IMG/VR virus record: IMGVR_UViG_3300038363_000197
Coordinates: 1 to 23,950 of that record
Length of the DNA stretch: 23,950 nucleotides
Source: a virus
Direction: 5' to 3' (one strand)
The notes under the pieces were generated by a model. The model saw only the letters and a list, made by a program, of their open reading frames with translations, searched no databases and was not told the origin of the DNA. Position numbers and translations under genes: made by a program. This document shows, piece after piece, positions 7,185-23,950 of the stretch; within the stretch, counting starts at the first letter, position 1, and every line of letters begins with the position of its first letter.

Positions 7185-7595
7185 ATGGCGAAGAATGAAC
7201 CACAGACAACAGCAGAAACACCAGCTCCAAAAGCAAAAAAGAAAAGGCTCAAAAAGGTAATTGATGGAACTGTTCTGACAATCACTGAAGGTCAAACAGG
7301 AGAAGTTCTTTCCCTGGATTTTGCAACTTTGCCAGACGGCATCCAGGCCCTCTTAGGCCCCTTTGGTTTAAGCCAGAAAATCGGGGATTCTGCAGCCGGT
7401 AAAAAGGGAGCAGAAGCAATTGCGGCCATGAACAAAGTCTGGACTGGTCTGTCAGAAGGTAACTGGTCTGTTCGTGCCCCCGCAGCTGAGAAGATTTCCA
7501 AGAAATCTATTCTTGGTAAGTTTGCCGATATGCCTAATGGTAAGGAGAAAGAATTGGCAGCTCAGCTTCTGAAAAAACTTGGTATTGTAGCCTAA
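7185..7595 (+). CDS. Conserved-type phage protein with Lys-rich N-terminus (136 aa)
   Basis: The start follows AGGAGG. Residues 1-26 are an Ala/Pro/Lys-rich, probably disordered tail (APKAKKKRLKKV at about 14-25). A compact domain then contains two Gly-rich turns. The sequence from about residue 80 on (AAMNKVWTGLSEGNW, then SKKSILGKF) is the kind seen in small DNA-associated phage proteins, but I cannot name one. It is the first gene of the recombination block and is followed by two strong hairpins, so it is probably expressed at a different level from the downstream nuclease. Confidence 0.65.
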   Translation: MAKNEPQTTAETPAPKAKKKRLKKVIDGTVLTITEGQTGEVLSLDFATLPDGIQALLGPFGLSQKIGDSAAGKKGAEAIAAMNKVWTGLSEGNWSVRAPAAEKISKKSILGKFADMPNGKEKELAAQLLKKLGIVA

Positions 7596-7609
7596 ACCAA
7601 GCAACCCAC

Positions 7610-7640
7610 GGAGTTAGTTTTCCGCTACCTTATTAACTCC
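7610..7640 (+). other. RNA hairpin after the 136-aa gene
   Basis: GGAGTTA (7610-7616) pairs with TAACTCC (7634-7640) around a 17-nt loop. There is no U-run after it. It stands directly before a second hairpin. Confidence 0.5.
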
Positions 7641-7648
7641 GAAACCCC

Positions 7649-7680
7649 GTAGGGAGAGTTTCTAACCAAATTCTCCCTAC
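7649..7680 (+). terminator. Probable intrinsic terminator or attenuator
   Basis: GTAGGGAGA (7649-7657) pairs perfectly over 9 bp with TCTCCCTAC (7672-7680), with a 14-nt loop, followed by acaaccTTTT. The U-run is short and displaced, so it may act as a partial terminator or a stabilising 3' structure for the upstream mRNA. The next gene starts at 7712. Confidence 0.5.
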
Positions 7681-8736: not shown

Positions 8737-8744
8737 AACAGAAA

Positions 8745-8759
8745 CGTCAAAATTTGACC
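8745..8759 (+). repeat. Palindrome GGTCAAAnTTTGACC, copy 2 (one mismatch)
   Basis: CGTCAAA-A-TTTGACC matches the other three copies except for the first base, and is again preceded by AGAAA. It lies 8 bp after the tRNA-like RNA and before the next ribosome site. Confidence 0.65.
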
Positions 8760-8773
8760 ATGGAGAGTTTAAA

Positions 8774-9993: not shown

Positions 9994-10521
9994 ATGGCTA
10001 AAGGAAGTACAGCAAAAGTAGAAGTAGAAGACAATTATCCAGAAGAAGAAGGTGCACTCGGTGGATTAAACTTTAACGTAGAAGACGAGTATAAAGCTGA
10101 CCCGCTGGTTCCAAATGGTACTTATCACGGAGTGGTTACAAAGGTATCATTTGTCCCCGCAACCTGTAGCATTATCTGGAGTATCTGCTTGCACGACAAC
10201 GGGGGAGTATTATCCGATGATGAAACACCTATCGACGGGGCTTATGTAATGTATGTTAATTCTCTGCCCAGGCCCGGCGATGAAGATCTGATGACCCCTT
10301 CAGGAAAGTCCACAAAACGCCAGTGGAAAATTAATGCTCTTTCTGAGTTCAGTAAAATCCTCGACATAGATATGTCAACTCCATCTGTTATTCTTCAGGC
10401 ATTAGAAGAGGGAATCTGGATTGGAATTGAAGTTGATGTAGATGTGGCTATTGAGGAGTACAAAGGTAAGTTTAATTCCAAAGTTAAACTTGGTGGAATT
10501 AGAAAGAGCTTGCTTTATTAA
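9994..10521 (+). CDS. Probable phage ssDNA-binding protein (DUF669-like, 175 aa)
   Basis: The 175-aa acidic protein starts behind TAGGAG. After an acidic N-terminal segment (VEVEDNYPEEEG) it shows the layout of phage OB-fold SSB-like proteins: a PNGTYHGVVTKV strand pair near residue 40, a central beta region, and a C-terminal EEYKGKFNSKVKLGGIRKS (about residues 153-171) that matches the conserved end of the DUF669/phage SSB group. Partners are expected to be the Sak4-like ATPase upstream and the polymerase. It is followed by a dense cluster of RNA hairpins. The family call rests on the C-terminal motif and context. Confidence 0.6.
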   Translation: MAKGSTAKVEVEDNYPEEEGALGGLNFNVEDEYKADPLVPNGTYHGVVTKVSFVPATCSIIWSICLHDNGGVLSDDETPIDGAYVMYVNSLPRPGDEDLMTPSGKSTKRQWKINALSEFSKILDIDMSTPSVILQALEEGIWIGIEVDVDVAIEEYKGKFNSKVKLGGIRKSLLY

Positions 10522-10531
10522 GCTTAACAAC

Positions 10532-10562
10532 ACCCTTCACGCTTCGGCGCACCCAGAAGGGT
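10532..10562 (+). other. Nested hairpin with UUCG tetraloop after the SSB-like gene
   Basis: ACCCTTC (10532-10538) pairs with GAAGGGT (10556-10562). Inside, CGC-TTCG-GCG (10540-10549) is a textbook cUUCGg tetraloop hairpin. No U-run follows at once, so it is either a 3' mRNA stabiliser or part of a compound terminator with the next hairpin. Confidence 0.6.
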
Positions 10563-10568
10563 TACTAA

Positions 10569-10586
10569 GTAAGTAGTAATACTTAC
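10569..10586 (+). terminator. 7-bp GNRA-type hairpin with weak U-run
   Basis: GTAAGTA (10569-10575), loop GTAA, TACTTAC (10580-10586), then acTTTT at 10587-10592. This could end transcription after the SSB-like gene, but the stem is AT-rich. Confidence 0.4.
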
Positions 10587-10596
10587 ACTTTTGTGT

Positions 10597-10660
10597 GGGG
10601 AGAAGGATACGAACGGATGACTGCTGTGACCGAACACAGAGGAAGGTGAGTTCACTCCCC
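10597..10660 (+). ncRNA. Structured RNA element, copy A of two
   Basis: Outer stem GGGGAG/CTCCCC (10597-10602 with 10655-10660), an inner GAAC/GTTC stem (10611-10614 with 10649-10653 region), and an apical hairpin CTGTG-accgaa-CACAG. The purine-rich joints GGATGACTG and AGGAAGGTGA are also present in copy B at 11330-11392, while the apical stem differs in sequence but keeps its pairing. This is good evidence for a conserved RNA. It matches no RNA family I can name. Confidence 0.7.
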
Positions 10661-10717
10661 ATTCAAACAAATAATATAACAATGTGATGTATTAAATTGA
10701 ACTTCAAGGAAAAGGAA

Positions 10718-11041
10718 ATGAAAATTTTCAGCGATAAATCAATCATCGGGCAAAATCAATGCACCACCAATGATGGAAAAGAAAGACTGTGGGGATGGTT
10801 TGAATTAAGTTATGCCAGTTTTTTAGTTATTCCAAGAGTTTTGATGCACTCGATGCCCGATGATTGGCAGAACCAAATGGCTTCCTTGCTTGAAGAATAT
10901 CAAGATACCTTCCCAAACCAACCAGATATTGGAACAAGGGTTCAGGCTACAAAGAACGGCAAACTTACCAAAATGCCAGAATTTTTAAAAAACTATCGGC
11001 ACCCTGATCATAGGGCTATCGAAAAGATTAAAGGAAAATAA
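10718..11041 (+). CDS. Conserved phage protein of unknown function (107 aa)
   Basis: I chose ATG 10718, behind AAGGAAAAGG; an upstream TTG at 10697 would add seven residues without a ribosome site. The sequence pattern (RLWGWFELSYASFLVIPRVLMHSMP, residues 23-47, written here as RLWGWFELSYASF then LVIPRVLMHSMP, followed by DDWQNQMASLLEEY) is one I recognise from hypothetical proteins of many phages of Gram-positive hosts. A C-terminal NYRHP motif is also typical. No function is established to my knowledge. It lies between the two copies of the structured RNA. Confidence 0.7.
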   Translation: MKIFSDKSIIGQNQCTTNDGKERLWGWFELSYASFLVIPRVLMHSMPDDWQNQMASLLEEYQDTFPNQPDIGTRVQATKNGKLTKMPEFLKNYRHPDHRAIEKIKGK

Positions 11042-11043
11042 AA

Positions 11044-11319
11044 ATGCTTAATCCTTTTAAAAAAGAACGCTTCATAGTTTGGCACAATGATACTGCTGAT
11101 CGTGTGATTGTTGAAAGAAATTGGTTTCAACGGTTGTTGTATCCTATTTGTTTTGCAACTTGTAGTGAAAGTATGAAGTCAAGTAGGATCAAAATTAATA
11201 TTGAAGCTGCCGAGAAGTTTATTGAGCATATAAAATCACATCTTGCCGATGATGAATACGTCGTTTGTAAGATATGTGGGAAATCCGTTGAAGAAATATA
11301 TATAGATTCAACTAAATAA
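11044..11319 (+). CDS. Hypothetical protein with C-terminal CxxC (91 aa)
   Basis: A 91-aa basic protein starting 2 bp after the previous stop, behind AAAGGAAAA. The N-terminal half is Trp/Phe/Arg-rich (ERNWFQRLLYP). The C-terminus carries CKICGK (about residues 75-80), half of a zinc knuckle, with two more Cys at about 37-40 that could complete it. The gene lies between the two structured RNAs. The family is not recognised. Confidence 0.65.
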   Translation: MLNPFKKERFIVWHNDTADRVIVERNWFQRLLYPICFATCSESMKSSRIKINIEAAEKFIEHIKSHLADDEYVVCKICGKSVEEIYIDSTK

Positions 11320-11329
11320 TATAACAAAT

Positions 11330-11392
11330 GGGGAGAAGGATTAGAACGGATGACTACTGCAATAAAAGCAGAGGAAGGTGAGTTCACTCTCC
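11330..11392 (+). ncRNA. Structured RNA element, copy B of two
   Basis: A 63-nt relative of the RNA at 10597-10660. The outer stem GGGGAG (11330-11335) pairs with CTCTCC (11387-11392), using one G-U where copy A has G-C. The apical stem is CTGC-aataaaa-GCAG instead of CTGTG-accgaa-CACAG, a compensatory change. The joints GAACGGATGAC and GAGGAAGGTGAGTTCACTC are shared. It begins 10 bp after the stop of the 91-aa gene. Confidence 0.7.
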
Positions 11393-11406
11393 ACACAAAA
11401 AATTTT

Positions 11407-11498
11407 TTACCCAGAGAAGCCCAAAAGAGAATCATTGAAATTAGCTATTATGTCAGCGCATAGAAAACTAACTAAATAACCCCGGTTTCTCTGGGTAA
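11407..11498 (+). promoter_or_regulatory. 15-bp inverted repeat closing a 92-nt leader fold
   Basis: TTACCCAGAGAAGCC (from 11407) pairs with GGTTTCTCTGGGTAA (ending 11498) over 15 bp with a single G-U. The enclosed sequence contains a smaller CTAT/ATAG hairpin. The stem ends five bases before the AAAGGAGG (11504-11511) of the ParB-methyltransferase operon. It looks like a leader RNA that could gate ribosome access or transcription. No riboswitch class is recognised. Confidence 0.6.
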
Positions 11499-11514
11499 TC
11501 TTTAAAGGAGGAAA

Positions 11515-11763
11515 ATGCAACTAGAAAATTTATATACAAATTTCGGGGAGTCTTCTCCTGAAGCTCAAGCGGCGTATGTATCCGAATACCGCTTAAAGCG
11601 GGCTATTGATATGGAAAAGACTCCTACCTGGCCTAAACCTAAAAAGGTTTCGAAAGCTAAAAATCCCCCGTTAACAGAAGAAGAAAAAGTTTTAATGACT
11701 TTAATGGGACTAAAGAAAAAAGATATATTTGCTATGAGAAAAGGAGATTATAACGATGCTTGA
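11515..11763 (+). CDS. Hypothetical basic protein before ParB-methyltransferase (82 aa)
   Basis: The start follows AAAGGAGG and the base of a long stem (11407-11498). The 82-aa protein has a helical N-terminus, a Pro/Lys-rich linker (TPTWPKPKKVSKAKNPP) and a C-terminal helix pair (EEEKVLMTLMGLKKKDI). It overlaps the ParB-methyltransferase gene by 8 nt, so the two are co-translated. It could be a small partner of that enzyme, but the sequence does not show a known one. Confidence 0.65.
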   Translation: MQLENLYTNFGESSPEAQAAYVSEYRLKRAIDMEKTPTWPKPKKVSKAKNPPLTEEEKVLMTLMGLKKKDIFAMRKGDYNDA

Positions 11764-13072
11764 CAACAAGCTCCACACAGTAGACCCAACCACTATAATC
11801 ATAGATGATGCTCAACCCCGACAAAGGAAAGACATCGGGGAGATTAATAAACTAATAGCCTCTATACAAACCTACGGACAAATTCAACCAATAGTTGTAA
11901 CCCGAGACATGGTACTTATAGCCGGGGGAAGGCGACTTGCTGCTTGCCTTGCCGGTGGATTCCAAGCTAAAATATGTTATTCTGATGAAATGGACCCGCT
12001 TACCTTAAAAGAACTCGAGCTAGAAGAAAACATCCAGCGGAAAGCTCTAACCCCTGCAGAAGAGTGCTTTGCCATAGACAGCCTGGTACAGCTTAAACAA
12101 AAGAAATATGGAAAACCGACTCAAGGTAGAACCGGCGGATACACGCTTGAAAATGCTGCAGAAGCTATCGGGAAAACAAAAGGAAATGTAATTGAAGCAA
12201 TCCAGATGGCTGATATGTTAAGACAATTTCCAGATCTATCCCAGGGTAAAACCAAGTCCGAGATTAAAAGGTCATACAAGGGTTTACAAAGAATCCAGCA
12301 AAACATAACCGCTTTAACAGATTTTAAAACTAAGTTAAAGGATGAAAAAAGATTCAATTTAGTAAACATGCCTGCTGAAACCCATCTACCAAGTATGAAA
12401 ACCAATTCTATTAATCTTTTGTTTACAGATCCTCCCTATGGTATAGATATAGATAAAAATGCTATGACCACGGGAGGAAAAACCGGCGGGAATCTCACCA
12501 ACACAGGTATAACATATGAAGATAATCTTGCATATGCTACAAAGCTGCTAACCACGCTCGCAGAAGAATCGTACCGCATCACAAAGGAATCCGGACACGC
12601 CTATATATTTTGCGGTCGGGATAGGTTTATATTTGCCCTTCTTTACGATCTTATGCTAAAGGCAAAATGGGATGTCTTAAAATGGCCGATTGTCTGGGTA
12701 AAAGGTAATTCTGGACAAAACAACCAGCCAGATCGCTGGCCAAGTTCTGCATACGAAGCTATTCTCTTTGCTAGAAAACCGTCTTCAAAGGTTATACTTC
12801 AAGGTAAACCAGACTGGATTCAGTGTGATATAGTCCCGCATGGACAGAAAACTCACCAAGCTGAAAAACCCGTCACACTGTGCAAAGAGTTAATAAATAG
12901 AGTAGCTTTGCCGGGAGATACCCTCTATGATCCCTTTGCTGGTTCCGGAGCTATTATCCAGGCTGCTTGTGAAATGAAACTTATAGCTACAGGCTGTGAA
13001 AAAGGTATTGAATCTTTTGCTACAGCACTCGCAAGACTTAATAAATGGAAAGAAGGAGAGGAAAATGATTAA
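11756..13072 (+). CDS. ParB-like domain fused to DNA methyltransferase (438 aa)
   Basis: A two-domain protein. Residues 8-110 form a ParB/Srx-type domain: a QPIVVTRDMVLIAGGRRLAA run (GGRR at 57-60) and ELEENIQRKALTPAE (87-102). Residues 125-160 look like the following helix-turn-helix region. The C-terminal half is an amino-methyltransferase of beta-class order: motif IV DPPYG (225-229) before the SAM-binding motif I DPFAGSG (392-398), with HQAEKP (367-372) between. DPPY indicates N6-adenine or N4-cytosine transfer. Such fusions are known in phages and probably protect phage DNA from host restriction. No restriction endonuclease is adjacent, so it is an orphan methyltransferase. Confidence 0.88.
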   Translation: MLDNKLHTVDPTTIIIDDAQPRQRKDIGEINKLIASIQTYGQIQPIVVTRDMVLIAGGRRLAACLAGGFQAKICYSDEMDPLTLKELELEENIQRKALTPAEECFAIDSLVQLKQKKYGKPTQGRTGGYTLENAAEAIGKTKGNVIEAIQMADMLRQFPDLSQGKTKSEIKRSYKGLQRIQQNITALTDFKTKLKDEKRFNLVNMPAETHLPSMKTNSINLLFTDPPYGIDIDKNAMTTGGKTGGNLTNTGITYEDNLAYATKLLTTLAEESYRITKESGHAYIFCGRDRFIFALLYDLMLKAKWDVLKWPIVWVKGNSGQNNQPDRWPSSAYEAILFARKPSSKVILQGKPDWIQCDIVPHGQKTHQAEKPVTLCKELINRVALPGDTLYDPFAGSGAIIQAACEMKLIATGCEKGIESFATALARLNKWKEGEEND

Positions 13073-14052: not shown

Positions 14053-14258
14053 ATAAAAACACTGACCTACAAAAGCAAGCTGATGATCTTGCAAAAGAAG
14101 CAAAAGTATTATTAAATAGTATATTTTGTCAAATATTAAAACTTGATCAAAAAACTGGTTTACAAGGAGTTGATAGATTAGTAGACTGTATAATCGGTAG
14201 TGCGATATTAACTGTAGCTTCGGTTATGGAAACAGGAGAAAAAAAGAAACAAGATTAA
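14049..14258 (+). CDS. Hypothetical helical protein (69 aa)
   Basis: A 69-aa helical protein coupled by ATGA to the zinc-ribbon gene, with CGGAGAAG upstream. The sequence consists of two helices with a Leu/Ile repeat and a Lys-rich end. It is followed four bases later by a palindrome (14263-14277) and then the polymerase gene. Not recognised. Confidence 0.65.
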   Translation: MNKNTDLQKQADDLAKEAKVLLNSIFCQILKLDQKTGLQGVDRLVDCIIGSAILTVASVMETGEKKKQD

Positions 14259-14262
14259 GAAA

Positions 14263-14277
14263 GGTCAAACTTTGACC
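14263..14277 (+). repeat. Palindrome GGTCAAAnTTTGACC, copy 3
   Basis: A perfect GGTCAAA-C-TTTGACC preceded by AGAAA, between the end of the 69-aa gene (14258) and the ribosome site of the DNA polymerase (14304). It is identical over 20 bases to copy 4 at 20017. Confidence 0.75.
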
Positions 14278-14303
14278 ATAATCCTTAAACAAAAGGAGAA
14301 AAA

Positions 14304-16709
14304 ATGCAAGTAAACCTCATAGGCCCCGCTGATGCTCAAATCATGCTTGTCGGAGATGCCCCAAGTGAAGAAGATTCTAAAACAGGATTACCGTTTTCAG
14401 GAACACCGGGGCGAACCCTTGATAACTTACTTACACAGGCTGAAATTGCCAGATACAAATGCCTTTTAACAAACGTAGCTAAAGAATACCCTCCTGCCGG
14501 AAGAATCTCTTACTTCTTCGAGGATAAAAAATGTACCATACCTAAGCCTAAACTCCAGTACTGGGTAGATGAATTAAAAGCGGATTTAGAATTATACAGA
14601 CCTAATATAATTATAGCTCTTGGTCCCATCGCTCTCTGGGCTTTAACTGGAGAGAAGAAAATCTCTATCTTCCGTGGGTATATTTTACCTTGCAAGCTAG
14701 TAAAAGGTCTAAAAATAATTCCTATTTATTCCCCGCAGTCAGTCACATATGATTGGAAACTATACTTTCAAACAGTAATAGATTTTCGCAAAGCTTTAAC
14801 TCATTCTAAATTCCCCGAGATTCCTGAAACAAAATCCATTTTCCTTCCAAACGTAGGTCTACAAAGATTCATTACCTATATGGAAGAGTGTATGGAGCAC
14901 CCGGAATGGGATAAGCTCGCCATAGATGTAGAAACTGTCCAACCAGGCTCTCATATTGAGGAACTTGGTCTTAGCCACCATCCCGATTTTGGTATATCTA
15001 TATTTCTTCTCAAAGGCAGAGCTCCAGCTTTACCGGAAAAAGATGAGCTTTTACTCTGGCAAACCTTTGCTAAATTAATAACTATGAAAAAGTTAGTAAT
15101 GCAAAACGGGGCTTACGACACCGGGGTACTTTGGTTCAACCAGCATATTTTATGCAAAGATCTCTACATGGATACCCTGATAGCTGCCCACGTATGCTGG
15201 CCGGAACTTCCCCGTGACTTAGGCTTTCTCGGCTCGGTATGCTTAGATGTAAAGCCTTGGAAAGGCGGTTCTGCAAAAGACCAAGATTACAACCCGGCTG
15301 ACGCAGCTAACACACTCGGTATAGCCGAAGTTCTTGATATAGAACTCGACAAGCAAAAAGTCCGCCCAACCTTTGAGTTCGAAATGAGTTTAATCCCCGT
15401 AGCTCTTATGATGCAGCTCCAGGGTATAAAAGTTGATACGGAGATTCAAGCTAAGCTTATAGAAATCTGGACAAAGAAAAGAGATAAGATGCTTTCTGAA
15501 TTGAACACCATTGTAGGCAGGGAGATAAACTTCAACTCTTCTCAACAAATGCAAGTACTTTTATACGATGAACTTAAACTCCCTATACAGTGGAAGAGAA
15601 GAAAGTCCAAGAACCAAAAGCGAACTAAAACTGTTGACGCTGCGGCTATCAGAAAATTATCCAGGCTTGTACCAGATAACCCTATTTTTAACTTATTCTT
15701 AGATTATAAAAAAGCTAATACTTTACTTAAGTTTCTTGATGTAAAGCTATCTGAAAACGACACCGTACACACCAGTTACAATATCACCGGAGCAGCATCT
15801 GATGATGAGGAAGATACTAAAAAAACCAAACGTAGCTTCGGTAGATGGAGTTCTTCGGGATCTATAATCCTACCCTTTGGAAGTGGAAACCTTCAGAACA
15901 TACCACCGGAGGCCAGGAAAATGTACAAGGCTAGAAAAGGGTGGAAAATTATAGAAGCTGATTATGCCCAGGCTGAAGCAGTAATAGTTGCACACCTTAC
16001 CGGAGATCATAAACTTAAGAAAATGTTTAAAGATTCTTTCGGTCTTTCTAATAGTGAAAAAACTGCCCTCGGCTACGACATTCACAAAATGACTATCGCC
16101 GACATGCTTGGAATTGACTTCTCCCTGGTAACAAAAGAAATCAGAACTATTGGTAAAACTGTCAGGCATGCGAATTCTTATTCTGCTGGCCCGACAGTCC
16201 TAGCCAATCGCTTGGGTATAAAACTCTCCGAAGCTAAAGTATACATGGAGCTTTACCATAGAGCAAATCCAACGCTTCGCATATGGCATACTTCTATCCA
16301 GAATGATCTAAAAAGATCTAGAACTTTAACAAATCTTCTTGGTAGAAAACACCGGTTCTTGGATCGCTGGGGAGATGGACTTTTTCGTTCAGCTTATTCA
16401 TACATACCCCAGTCAACTATCGGGGACCTGCTAAACGTAGCCTTAAAAAAAGTATACGATAGTCTTTCATCCCTGCCATATGAAATGGAAATCTTACTCC
16501 AACTCCACGATGCTATTTATGTAATGATAAAAGATGAAAATATAGATCATACTGTAAGGCATTTACGAAAGCTGATGTTAAACCCACTCACCTATTATGG
16601 CGAAGAATTCATAGTAGATGTAGATTTCAAAGTGAAGACTTCCTGGGCAGAAGGTGAGGAATTGGATATAAGCTGGCGAAGCGAAGAGCTGAAAAATGGA
16701 TTTGTGTAA
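14304..16709 (+). CDS. Family A DNA polymerase with N-terminal UDG-like domain (801 aa)
   Basis: Replicative DNA polymerase. Residues 1-170 resemble a family 4/5 uracil-DNA glycosylase: VGDAPSEED (16-24), GLPFSGTPG (28-36), LLTNVAKEYPPAGR (54-67), IIALGPIALWAL. The usual His-Pro of glycosylase motif B is replaced by Ser-Pro (S143-P144), so activity is doubtful. A 3'-5' exonuclease follows, with D208/E210 (IDVET), NGAYDT and a YNPADA motif. Polymerase motif A is D553-YAQAE; motif B has R614, K618 and Y626; motif C is LHDAIYV (H735, D736, with A737 where Glu is usual). UDG-like N-termini on phage Pol A are known, for example in SPO1. The start is behind AAAAGGAG. Confidence 0.92.
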   Translation: MQVNLIGPADAQIMLVGDAPSEEDSKTGLPFSGTPGRTLDNLLTQAEIARYKCLLTNVAKEYPPAGRISYFFEDKKCTIPKPKLQYWVDELKADLELYRPNIIIALGPIALWALTGEKKISIFRGYILPCKLVKGLKIIPIYSPQSVTYDWKLYFQTVIDFRKALTHSKFPEIPETKSIFLPNVGLQRFITYMEECMEHPEWDKLAIDVETVQPGSHIEELGLSHHPDFGISIFLLKGRAPALPEKDELLLWQTFAKLITMKKLVMQNGAYDTGVLWFNQHILCKDLYMDTLIAAHVCWPELPRDLGFLGSVCLDVKPWKGGSAKDQDYNPADAANTLGIAEVLDIELDKQKVRPTFEFEMSLIPVALMMQLQGIKVDTEIQAKLIEIWTKKRDKMLSELNTIVGREINFNSSQQMQVLLYDELKLPIQWKRRKSKNQKRTKTVDAAAIRKLSRLVPDNPIFNLFLDYKKANTLLKFLDVKLSENDTVHTSYNITGAASDDEEDTKKTKRSFGRWSSSGSIILPFGSGNLQNIPPEARKMYKARKGWKIIEADYAQAEAVIVAHLTGDHKLKKMFKDSFGLSNSEKTALGYDIHKMTIADMLGIDFSLVTKEIRTIGKTVRHANSYSAGPTVLANRLGIKLSEAKVYMELYHRANPTLRIWHTSIQNDLKRSRTLTNLLGRKHRFLDRWGDGLFRSAYSYIPQSTIGDLLNVALKKVYDSLSSLPYEMEILLQLHDAIYVMIKDENIDHTVRHLRKLMLNPLTYYGEEFIVDVDFKVKTSWAEGEELDISWRSEELKNGFV

Positions 16710-19987: not shown

Positions 19988-20016
19988 AAGCTGACCCTTC
20001 TAAATCCACCAAGAAA

Positions 20017-20031
20017 GGTCAAACTTTGACC
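20017..20031 (+). repeat. Palindrome GGTCAAAnTTTGACC, copy 4
   Basis: GGTCAAA-C-TTTGACC preceded by AAGAAA and followed by GTTTTACTT, in the 51-bp gap between converging genes. Here, unlike in the other copies, the hairpin plus T-run could also work as a bidirectional terminator. Confidence 0.7.
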
Positions 20032-20038
20032 GTTTTAC

Positions 20039-23000
20039 TTATCTTGAAATTTTTCTTTTCTTTCTTTGAATTTTTCTAATAGCATTTTTACCCTTAGGTT
20101 TTTGAATCTTTCTAATTCTGCTAATAGCATTCTTACTCTGATTCTTCTCTCTATCTTTTTCAACTTTTTCAAGTCCCTTACCCCAACGGTAATAATAGAA
20201 CTTTCCTACCAACGGGATAGACTTAGTAAATTCAAGACCCTTCCCGTCACCCGCTGAAACCACATCCCTGAATATAGAATTTATAAACTGTGTAGGAGGA
20301 AGAATTTGTTCAAGCAGTGCCCCGGGACCTTCTCTTCTAATCTTACTCGTAGTATATCGTGATATAGCCAGCCCCGAAATTCTACCCACAACAGTGTCTG
20401 ATATATTAATAGGTTTACCAAGAAACAAGTCTATTAAAGTATCCCCTGTAGCTTCCATTAAGGTTAAAAAGAATGCTATTTTAAACAGGTTTTTAATGCC
20501 TTGTATTCTGGTACCAGGCTTGGCTATTTGCTGAAAAACCTTTCTTCTATATACATCAAACTTTTTCAAGTCAAAAGATTTAAGCATATAAGCTATTCTA
20601 GCATTTCCACCTTCTATAAACCCCTGCGGGAGTTCAGAAAGCGTAGCAGGTTGATATTCTGATAATTTTCTTAGTAGATAAAGTTTAACATCTCTTGATT
20701 TTACCCCACTTCTAAAATCTTCCATTAAAGCATCTGTTCGATTTTCAAATATAGGTATGAGTTTATTTATAAAAGCATCTCTAACCTTAATATCTTTACT
20801 CTTTGCCTTTCTAACCGCTATATCATATGCAGCATTTATTAACATCTCTTTCCCAATAGCATCTATTTTTGTCAACCAAATAACTCTAAACACACTATCT
20901 ACAGCTTTTGCAGACAAGGTCTTATCACTAAATTCCGCCCCAATTTTACTAATCCCAAGATCTTCTTTTGTAAATCTCGAGCCGTATTTTTGCGAAATAA
21001 AGTTACCGACCATTGCCTTAACAAAAGCTTTACCTGAAGCAAAAGTCCCGTTCTCTATCATAGACCAACCAATATCACCGACTTGCCGAAGTGCTGACGC
21101 CGGGGAGCCCATAACGTCTATCACAGCTACGTTTTTAAAGGTGGTAACAATTCCACTAGTTCCAACAGGGTTAAATCTAGCATGAAGCATTGACCTTAGT
21201 TCAAGTTCCTGGCTCGGGGTAAGTCTCTTCTCTTTAGATACCCTTAAAATATACGCCCCAATAGTTTCGTTTAAATCCAGGCCCTCTATTTTATAGTCTC
21301 CAAAAAGTTTTTTAGCTTCTACTGCTAAAACTATATCATTGACATAGCGTAAAAGAGCACTGTTAGAATCCCCGTAAAACTCCATTATTTCAGGGCCAAT
21401 TTTCTTTAACTTTCTAAGCTTTAGTTGTCCCGGTTTAGAAAGCGTAATTCTTTCATCAGCATAACCTCTAAACAACGAATTTACAAGTTTAATTTCTTCC
21501 TCATTAGTTAGCTTTCTACCAAGTTTTTTCTCTTTAGCTTCAATAAAAAATTCTATCGTAGATCTATTACCAGTCTCATACAAATAATCCATAAGACCTT
21601 CAAAATCTATAATCTGCCGAGGATGGTAATCTTTTAAATAATTAAACTTATATCCAACTGCTCTAGCTTCGTTACCAATAGCATCAAGCATACCCCGAAC
21701 TTTTTTATACTCTTCTTCCATCCCGTACTTCTCTACCAGCCCATCTATTTCTTTTTTGTTCCGCTCTTTCCTCGCAAGATCAAAAGTATCATAATCTTTC
21801 TTAGACATTTTAGTAGTTTTTTCTATAAACGGAAGCATTACATCTTTAGCTATTTTTTCTACCTTAACCCCGGTGTCTAACTCAAATTCGATTATTTTAT
21901 TCTTTATACTTGGACTTATCTTTTCAAGCCTGGTAGTGAGTGCTCCAAGTTTTTCATCTAGTAATTTTTTAGTTCTTTTAATGTTTCTTTTTGTAGCTGC
22001 TTTTATTTCTCTAACCGGGATTGTAACAGCCCCCTTTTCATTTTTTAAGGGTCTTTTTAACCCTTTCCAAATTTCACCTATGTACTTCTTAACCTTAACC
22101 CACAGATCCCCTAGAGCTCCTTTCATCTTTTTCTGCCAATCGAAGTACCGCTGTTTTCCACCTGTATAATAATGTTTTCCTAGAGTTTCCAGGTGTGGAA
22201 TTGCTGCTTTTATATCTTTTCCCAGGTCCCGAATTGCTTTTACAGCTTCAACTGGATCAAACCCGGAGGTAAGTTTTACTCCACCTCTATCCCGTACTTG
22301 TCCATGTCTTTCAACATCTGTTGTAGATTTTTTCTCGTCGGAGAATTGTCCAACCCTTCGTTGTTCAGGGACATATTCAGAGAAGATCGGAGAGATCGTC
22401 CCTGCTTTTTGTATATCTTCGAGAGCTTTTGTAGCGTGTCTGATATCTGATTCGTATTTTTTAAAGAACTCATAAGCTTGTGCCTCCATTTTATGTTTTG
22501 AAAATCCTAAATCTCTTTCTATTCTATGAAACTCTTGAACAAAAGATAAATAATGTCCATTTGCATTTGTGTGAGCGTATTCATGTGTAAGTGTACTAAT
22601 TAACCCAATAGCTGCACTTTCTAATTCTTTATCTTTTGCTTTAATTTGTGTCGGTGTTAATTCATTTATAGTTTTTGTACCGTAAGGTAATCCATCTACA
22701 TCTTTTAAAAACGTATCTAAATAAGTAAACGGATTTACCACTACATAATCCTCTTTAAGTATACCACTTTTTGGTCTAAAACCGTGTACACCTGCGTAAG
22801 TTGTAATTGCTACATTTTGTTGGGGTACGTTAGTCTGTTTACCAATTGTATCGCTATGTAATTTAGTAATTTCACCAAGTTCACTAAACATCTTTGGATA
22901 CTGCTTTAACACTTTTACAGCTTCTACAGTAGATCCTGTAATAGGAATAATAAATTTTGTATCACTTATTTTTGGTGCTGAATTAAAAAGTCTTTGTATA

Positions 23001-23950
23001 TCTTTTTTAATTGTATCAGCAATTTTTTTATTTAATTCAGATAAAGTTTTACGTATCGCACTTTTAACTTTTGACTCAACTTTAGCTGTTAATGTGGTTC
23101 TATTTACAACAAAAGGATAATTTGCTATATCAGAAGCTTCTGGCGTTTTAATAAAATTTATTTCAATTTCAAAATTAGGTTTTTTAGCAATAGAAAAGTT
23201 TAAACTACTACGTTTAGGTACGTCAGGTAAAAGAAGACCTTTATTAAATACTTTTACTCTTACGTCTTTCATTTCTTCACTAGACCAACCATACGGTTTG
23301 GTTTTAGGAAATTTAATCTCTACATCACTACCTTCAACAGAAAACTTTTCTACATCAAAAATACTATCTATATTTTCCCATTTAGGTGATTTAACATCAA
23401 CTACTTTAACATCTATACTAGGGGTTAATCCAGTTTCTTTTAGTTCTTTATCTGACTTAAAATCTTTCATTACTTTTACTGTTTGCCCAGTTCTAAGTCC
23501 GTCACCAAAAGTTTCTAGTTCAGCAAGAACTCTATGTGGTTGAATACCATATTCACCTATTGAATTTTGCCCCTTTTTAAGTATAATTCTAGTTCCGGTT
23601 TTACTATTATCTGCTACTTCTTTTATTTCTTTATTAACATTATTCTTAAGCATATAATCTTCACTGGTACCCCAGATTTTGCTTTGTACTTTCTTTCCTG
23701 TTGTAGGATCAATACCTACAGTAACAATATCAAACGAATCAGGCCAACCCATAAACGCAAGTTTAGCTTGACCAAAACCGCCCATATCTTCAGCACCTTT
23801 AGTACCTTGCTCATATAAAATTATAAGATCAGATGTTGCAATTTGCGGTGACATACCTTTACCGTAGTCTGTCATAGCTAAAATACCATCATTTATATAT
23901 ACTTCTAATGGTTTTGTAGTATAGTCTCTCATAGCATCAAACGAATTTTG
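20039..23950 (-). CDS. Large polyvalent phage protein: GHKL ATPase, metzincin-like protease, LPD38-like C-terminus (5' end outside window)
   Basis: At least 1303 codons; the frame is open to the window edge, so the ATG at 23930-23932 is internal. Codons just before it read QNSFDA, the GHKL N-box. Counting from that Met: D22-YGKG (DxGxG), GGFGQAK (51-57) and GTRIILK (113-119) complete an ATPase of the HSP90/MutL/histidine-kinase fold. HEYAHTNANGH (450-460) gives HExxH with a third His at the metzincin position. A FDP...GKHYYTGGKQRYFDWQKKM region (about 558-602) and a PVGTSGIVTTFKNVAVIDVMG-type region with SPASALRQVGDIGW (about 922-956) resemble domains of large polyvalent proteins, including LPD38. 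The C-terminus is very basic. Probably a virion protein injected with the DNA. GC is lower in the N-terminal part. Confidence 0.8.
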   Translation of the reverse strand, partial: QNSFDAMRDYTTKPLEVYINDGILAMTDYGKGMSPQIATSDLIILYEQGTKGAEDMGGFGQAKLAFMGWPDSFDIVTVGIDPTTGKKVQSKIWGTSEDYMLKNNVNKEIKEVADNSKTGTRIILKKGQNSIGEYGIQPHRVLAELETFGDGLRTGQTVKVMKDFKSDKELKETGLTPSIDVKVVDVKSPKWENIDSIFDVEKFSVEGSDVEIKFPKTKPYGWSSEEMKDVRVKVFNKGLLLPDVPKRSSLNFSIAKKPNFEIEINFIKTPEASDIANYPFVVNRTTLTAKVESKVKSAIRKTLSELNKKIADTIKKDIQRLFNSAPKISDTKFIIPITGSTVEAVKVLKQYPKMFSELGEITKLHSDTIGKQTNVPQQNVAITTYAGVHGFRPKSGILKEDYVVVNPFTYLDTFLKDVDGLPYGTKTINELTPTQIKAKDKELESAAIGLISTLTHEYAHTNANGHYLSFVQEFHRIERDLGFSKHKMEAQAYEFFKKYESDIRHATKALEDIQKAGTISPIFSEYVPEQRRVGQFSDEKKSTTDVERHGQVRDRGGVKLTSGFDPVEAVKAIRDLGKDIKAAIPHLETLGKHYYTGGKQRYFDWQKKMKGALGDLWVKVKKYIGEIWKGLKRPLKNEKGAVTIPVREIKAATKRNIKRTKKLLDEKLGALTTRLEKISPSIKNKIIEFELDTGVKVEKIAKDVMLPFIEKTTKMSKKDYDTFDLARKERNKKEIDGLVEKYGMEEEYKKVRGMLDAIGNEARAVGYKFNYLKDYHPRQIIDFEGLMDYLYETGNRSTIEFFIEAKEKKLGRKLTNEEEIKLVNSLFRGYADERITLSKPGQLKLRKLKKIGPEIMEFYGDSNSALLRYVNDIVLAVEAKKLFGDYKIEGLDLNETIGAYILRVSKEKRLTPSQELELRSMLHARFNPVGTSGIVTTFKNVAVIDVMGSPASALRQVGDIGWSMIENGTFASGKAFVKAMVGNFISQKYGSRFTKEDLGISKIGAEFSDKTLSAKAVDSVFRVIWLTKIDAIGKEMLINAAYDIAVRKAKSKDIKVRDAFINKLIPIFENRTDALMEDFRSGVKSRDVKLYLLRKLSEYQPATLSELPQGFIEGGNARIAYMLKSFDLKKFDVYRRKVFQQIAKPGTRIQGIKNLFKIAFFLTLMEATGDTLIDLFLGKPINISDTVVGRISGLAISRYTTSKIRREGPGALLEQILPPTQFINSIFRDVVSAGDGKGLEFTKSIPLVGKFYYYRWGKGLEKVEKDREKNQSKNAISRIRKIQKPKGKNAIRKIQRKKRKISR

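Follow-up and report, generated by a model that had tools for sequence, protein, structure and literature searches.

The window (the whole stretch of DNA that was analysed, 23,950 bases) is an IMG/VR virus record. It is phage DNA and encodes a Sak4-like annealing protein, PolA, a ParB-methyltransferase fusion and a primase. Two copies of a small RNA element lie within it, each with an outer helix (P1) and an apical helix (P3) separated by internal-loop strands, which we call joints. The features of this region are the following:

10529 to 10586, + strand: two hairpins just 5' of copy 1, ACCCUUC/GAAGGGU and GUAAGUA/UACUUAC
10596 to 10661, + strand: RNA copy 1, 66 nt; P1 UGGGGAG/CUCCCCA; P3 CU-G-CUGUG/CACAG-AG; joints AAGGAUACGAACGGAUGA between P1 and P3 on the 5' side and GAAGGUGAGUUCA after P3
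10718 to 11041, + strand: ORF114, cassette gene, 107 aa from ATG; PHROG 3527 (unknown function)
11044 to 11319, + strand: ORF91, cassette gene without family match
11306 to 11328, + strand: AT-rich linker ATTCAACTAAATAATATAACAA, from the end of ORF91 to copy 2; linker plus RNA form an 87-bp present/absent unit
11329 to 11393, + strand: RNA copy 2, 65 nt; P1 with one G-U pair; P3 CU-A-CUGC/GCAG-AG
11407 to 11498, + strand: 15-bp long-range hairpin directly 3' of copy 2

Copy 1 is located between ORF114 and a gene without family match, which from its position we take to be ssDNA-binding-like. Copy 2 begins 9 nt past ORF91.

Elsewhere in the window, an N6/N4 DNA methyltransferase with a ParB-like N-terminus is encoded as one fused ORF (11756-13072), and a uracil-DNA-glycosylase-superfamily domain is fused N-terminally to PolA, a DNA polymerase I-like ORF (14304-16709). 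The - strand ORF at 20039-23932 (1297 aa) gave no Pfam or PHROG match; by eye, it shows a GHKL-like N-terminus (DGILAMTDYGKGM) and a HEYAH zincin-like motif, as phage polyvalent proteins do. Additionally, four near-identical palindromes (AGAAAGGTCAAA-TTTGACCAT) were observed at 2707-2728, 8740-8761, 14258-14279 and 20012-20033. They are spaced by 5.5-6.0 kb, three of the four are at gene ends, and they look operator- or terminator-like.

An earlier note had described a pair of related RNAs of about 64 nt with shared joints. Both copies exist, with a true extent of one base more at either end, and the conserved 11-mer and 19-mer, GAACGGATGAC and GAGGAAGGTGAGTTCACTC, are identical at each site; in the case of the 19-mer, 0.02 matches at up to 3 mismatches are expected by chance. 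Each copy folded better than its shuffled versions (z of -2.67 for copy 1 and -2.52 for copy 2). The swap of a G-C for a G-U pair in the outer stem was confirmed. The compensation claimed for the apical stem turned out to be thin: one pair changes from U-A to C-G, but the adjacent pair is lost (G-C to A.A). Because only this one apical pair differs on both sides, the two copies alone are too weak for a claim of selection on RNA shape.

Covariance searches, as proposed at the time, and pattern searches gave six more distinct sequences with covarying outer and apical stems, bringing the family to eight, which is small. The outcome that the note had named as refuting, a covariance search returning the two window sequences alone, thus did not occur. 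Exact two-part patterns in IMG/VR matched only the near-identical phages L001-L005, five close relatives that all keep copy 1, and looser patterns gave the remaining members. Five more phage contigs, most of them unrelated, contain homologues: L097 and L100 carry compact forms, L098 has a longer apical loop, and in L073 and L063 about 100 nt replace the apical loop. The copy-2 allele was found in three more contigs, L062, L066 and L088 (a viral-looking contig of a Desulfobacula MAG), and there, as in L001, its P1 is perfect. A covariance model, R2, built from members found by the freer patterns, scored 70-92 bits for all members and at most 18.7 bits for the others among the 51 sequences searched. 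Because most members were found with patterns fixing part of the 5' joint, the invariance of this joint is partly built in. The last IMG/VR pattern, in which the first half of the 5' joint was free while its second half and the 3' joint were bound, gave no further members; both this pattern and the first relaxed one returned, besides known members, only chance matches, mostly coding-like.

Searching cultured phages and plasmids by blastn gave no member, with short chance matches only. With R2, 395 genomes of the Desulfobacula phylum gave the L088 contig and a weak match, L115, while in three other phyla (299, 296 and 299 genomes) the only match was L160, a weak one. It was rejected, as it resembles the start of a reading frame (SD and ATG) and as 299 genomes would yield such a match by chance; L115, similarly weak, was rejected too. 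In total, the L088 contig was the only member in about 1,290 genomes from four phyla. All of these searches, by blastn as well as with R2, covered samples under strict filters, which leaves room for rare members.

Across the homologues, P1 and P3 covary. In a model-fitted alignment, both helices were paired except for one cell in the outermost P1 pair, and eight pairs changed on both sides. The covariation score was 0.40; shuffled alignments gave 0.15, with none of 500 reaching the observed value, and sliding the partner gave 0.15 or less. A structure-blind MAFFT alignment showed P1 and P3 100% paired, again with eight pairs changed on both sides, and a score of 0.37 versus 0.16 (0 of 500), the slid partner reaching at most 0.12. 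RNAalifold, applied to a structure-blind alignment of six members, recovered P1 and P3 independently. Of 88 cells in the core stems, 85 are Watson-Crick, three are G-U and none is A-C, as RNA would show. Moreover, P1 can be extended outwards to 9 bp in L001 (copy 2), L066, L097 and L100, to 14 bp plus two G-U pairs in L098 and to 16 bp in L063, with differing sequences. Altogether, a real, selected RNA structure is practically certain, and its shape is clearly under selection, as the earlier note had held.

Overall, the RNA is rod-shaped. Both helices vary, the outer P1 measuring 6-16 bp and the apical P3 being closed by a loop of 5-7 nt, 33 nt or about 100 nt; the asymmetric internal loop between them is fixed. 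About 27 positions are near-invariant, the fixed ones being AAGGAU..G...GGAUGACU in the 5' strand and AG.AAG.U.AG.UCA in the 3' strand. The conservation noted for the purine-rich internal loops thus extends to the family, with joints nearly fixed over eight distinct sequences. Regarding the three stems originally drawn, the outer and apical ones are right, but the middle one, GAAC/GUUC, found no support: it is 84% paired without any compensatory change, and other members read GCCC, GCAC or GCAU in this strand. An alternative pairing, GGAU/GUUC, proposed by RNAalifold is almost invariant, so that covariation neither supports nor excludes it.

The apical insertion of about 100 nt in L063 and L073 can form an H-type pseudoknot. 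In L063, AAUCCCG would pair with CGGGUAUU and CCUGACAC with GUGUCAGG; in L073, CUAACCCUG would pair with CAGGGUUUAG and CCUGAUAC with GUAUCGGG. These pairs differ between the two contigs and are all standard, apart from a single U that bulges from the 3' strand of the first helix. An apical pseudoknot is likely, as judged from these two sequences. Also in L063 (reverse-strand coordinates 7430-7665), an imperfect inverted repeat of the CGCAGAGACGCAGAG type encloses the element, lengthening P1 well past 16 bp.

The surroundings of the element were compared between contigs. L062 and L036, with flanks 99.9-100% identical, show a clean difference of 87 bp, made up of the RNA and a single AT-rich linker. 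This linker, ATTCAACTAA.TAATATA, is found on either side of the RNA as an 18-nt direct repeat, and a near-same linker also follows copy 1 (10661-10682). In the same way, copy 2 is present in L001 and its site is empty in L002. What the window has in common with L062, L066 and L088 is essentially ORF91, ORF114 relatives and HNH-type genes, and ORF91 also occurs in unrelated phage contigs, in some followed by the RNA and in others not. The element is not essential to the lineage, because relatives at 50-75% protein identity (L043-L046 and L049) are without it. The two copies had been described as flanking two genes. This holds in the window genome, but elsewhere ORF114 is absent (L001, L002 and L004) and copy 2 is gone from L002 and, as far as the contig end shows, from L005. 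Since the genes and copy 2 are gained and lost separately, it is incidental that the copies form a pair around two genes.

The RNA is intergenic, in several cases 7-9 nt past a stop codon and 9-56 nt ahead of the next start, and it shares its strand with the flanking genes wherever these are well resolved, which is less the case in L098 and L063. It sits at the joints of shuffled gene cassettes. The genes downstream are ORF114, a gene that we read from its sequence as NinB-like, endonuclease VII, a DnaJ-like gene and unknowns. Judged from these contig comparisons, the element is exchanged among phages as a module of about 87 bp made of linker and RNA.

Regarding the surrounding genes, ORF91, ORF114 and the NinB-like gene shuffle among L033, L036, L062 and L066 (contigs up to 131 kb), and the ORF91/ORF114 region shows sharp joints at ATTCAACTAACTAATATA and AAGGAAAATAAAAATGCTTAATCC. 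In L097 (8366-9819), an HNH endonuclease gene stands right behind an ORF that by eye is thymidylate-synthase-like; a second copy of the C-terminal region of this ORF follows the HNH gene, and the RNA comes a few hundred bases further.

The neighbouring hairpins were also compared with shuffled sequences. The two hairpins 5' of copy 1 gave a z of -3.6 (0 of 200 shuffles equal). The hairpin 3' of copy 2 (z of -3.6) contains a terminator-like inner stem at 11481-11495, and L100 has an analogous 18-bp hairpin 3' of its RNA (z of -6.0) that ends in UUUU. Downstream hairpins were seen in two distinct cases, with a clear U-rich end in L100 only. A consensus search of 10400-11600 on the + strand found no sigma-70-like promoter, other phage promoter types being outside this consensus.

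The statement that no named family is recognisable was borne out by Rfam. At the gathering threshold of Rfam 15, the window, L062, L063, L066, L073 and L088 gave no match, and permissive searches gave chance-level matches only, the best being L063 to freshwater-1 with 19.1 bits against a cutoff of 72. ARAGORN found no tRNA or tmRNA. By these comparisons, the element represents a previously unnamed RNA family, carried between genes by several otherwise unrelated phages.

The function that we infer for this demonstrated structure is that of a gene-independent cis expression element, forming a new phage RNA family whose loops would bind a general factor in a put-like manner, a reading to which we assign a probability of about 0.4. 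The RNA would be transcribed within a polycistronic mRNA, in intergenic position, and would act in cis. The invariant loop nucleotides would be the putative binding site for the general factor; candidates are RNA polymerase during transcription, as for HK022 putRNA, and some other protein of the host or phage. Any cassette landing behind the RNA would then be expressed. The indifference to downstream genes, the intergenic position, the fixed loops and the movable habit argue for such a general cis element rather than a metabolite switch. Points against this reading are the small size of the family, the presence of a following hairpin in two cases only, the negative search for a sigma-70-like promoter and the lack of the module in the relatives at 50-75% protein identity.

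A close comparison is HK022 putRNA, an RNA of ~70 nt of which this one phage has two related copies. It is located downstream of PL and PR, folds into a V of two stem-loops, acts in cis on the sequence that follows without a dedicated trans-acting protein factor and mediates antitermination through the beta' zinc-binding domain (PMC9378689). The element resembles it as a structured RNA of about 70 nt with two related copies in one phage and, putatively, in acting in cis on whatever follows without a dedicated trans factor. In contrast, it lies between varied genes, shows no recognised sequence similarity to putRNA and is one rod with internal loops; two adjacent stem-loops were not found, as covariation backs a single rod of P1, loop and P3. 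Because copy 2 and the L100 RNA are just ahead of strong long-range hairpins, an antiterminator would be useful there, and an RNA helping polymerase past hairpins, as HK022 putRNA does, would fit.

Other phage RNAs share single traits with the element. The PeSLs of T4-like phages, as cited in PMC4503421 (Arbiol 2010, Comeau 2014), consist of an early promoter and a stem-loop, which the 2014 title calls a terminator. So described, they are small regulatory cassettes that place a stem-loop where shuffled phage genes meet, as the element would be. In contrast, the element is elaborate in structure, its internal loops are invariant, no promoter was recognised in it, and its phages are not recognised as T4-like. 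The orphan phage motifs manA and wcaG share with the element covariation support, an unassigned function and occurrence in phages and metagenomes, but they are upstream of themed metabolic genes (PMC2864571), and no Rfam model of such motifs matches the element.

The main rival to a cis expression element, which we consider unlikely, is a new class of small self-cleaving ribozyme, in which the fixed loop would be a catalytic core between two variable helices and cleavage would separate cistrons or free an RNA end. The element is indeed compact, with strict loops, freely varying helices, tolerated apical insertions up to about 100 nt and no coherent downstream gene. On sequence inspection, UGA opposes GAA beside P3, so that sheared G-A pairs may form in tandem, as they do in the hammerhead core. 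The hatchet and pistol ribozymes were likewise bioinformatic discoveries (PMC4604424, PMC4604425), and with these and the hammerhead the element shares its shortness, fixed loops, variable helices and indifference to neighbour genes. However, the architecture differs, any catalysis is putative and no Rfam ribozyme matches: the core reads CGGAUGA...GAAG where the hammerhead has CUGAUGA...GAAA, and the third stem, and with it the three-way junction, is absent. Furthermore, about 27 near-invariant positions exceed the highly conserved nucleotides of hatchet (13) or pistol (10), and no cleavage site can be predicted.

It is less probable, and in our view rather doubtful, that the loops bind a small molecule as a riboswitch-like aptamer controlling the next gene. 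The invariant joints and variable helices would suit an aptamer, and copy 1 and the L098 RNA are in a plausible 5' UTR, but the downstream genes share no pathway or consistent theme, the module moves independently of them and there is no common expression platform.

A short ORF encoding a leader peptide or small protein instead of a structured RNA is very improbable. All members do have an SD-like AAGGAU and, 8-9 nt further, an AUGACU, and the copy-2 type and L097 read alike (MTTAIKAEEDEFTPHSTN, MTVAIKAKEVKFTPHYK...), but the SD-AUG match was built into the search patterns. The frame breaks between members (copy 1 and L100 use another frame, L073 and L063 stop within the apical domain) and lengths span 10-37 aa, so that no peptide is conserved, and coding cannot explain compensatory changes or a P1 of 16 bp.

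Least of all do we favour an element acting as DNA hairpins (transposon ends, a recombination site or a single-strand origin): the clean indel with its direct repeats would suit it, but P1 stays paired though its sequence varies, unlike transposon ends read by a transposase, no recombinase is encoded within, recombination between the flanking repeats explains gain and loss, and the core stems contain G-U pairs and no A-C. Three further ideas were discarded: a resemblance of the joint GAGGAAGGUG to 16S rRNA, because the sequence there is GAAGUUGA or GAAGCUAA in other members; a kink-turn, as the strand arrangement does not fit; and an RNase III site, as compact members have only helices of 7-9 bp and 4-7 bp around a large loop, which is more conserved than such sites need.

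In conclusion, with somewhat less than an even chance in its favour, the element may represent a new functional class of RNA in phages: an antiterminator that is self-sufficient and has no relation to putRNA, or else a novel ribozyme that cleaves itself. In either case it would spread among phages as a plug-in module of about 87 bp before newly acquired genes. The variation within the family, with mini forms and pseudoknotted apical forms of about 100 nt, suits direct tests with short synthetic RNAs. Newly acquired phage genes need immediate expression to be kept. If true, such cassettes could simply be plugged into the phage transcript by means of a portable RNA module that moves by itself and precedes unrelated genes.
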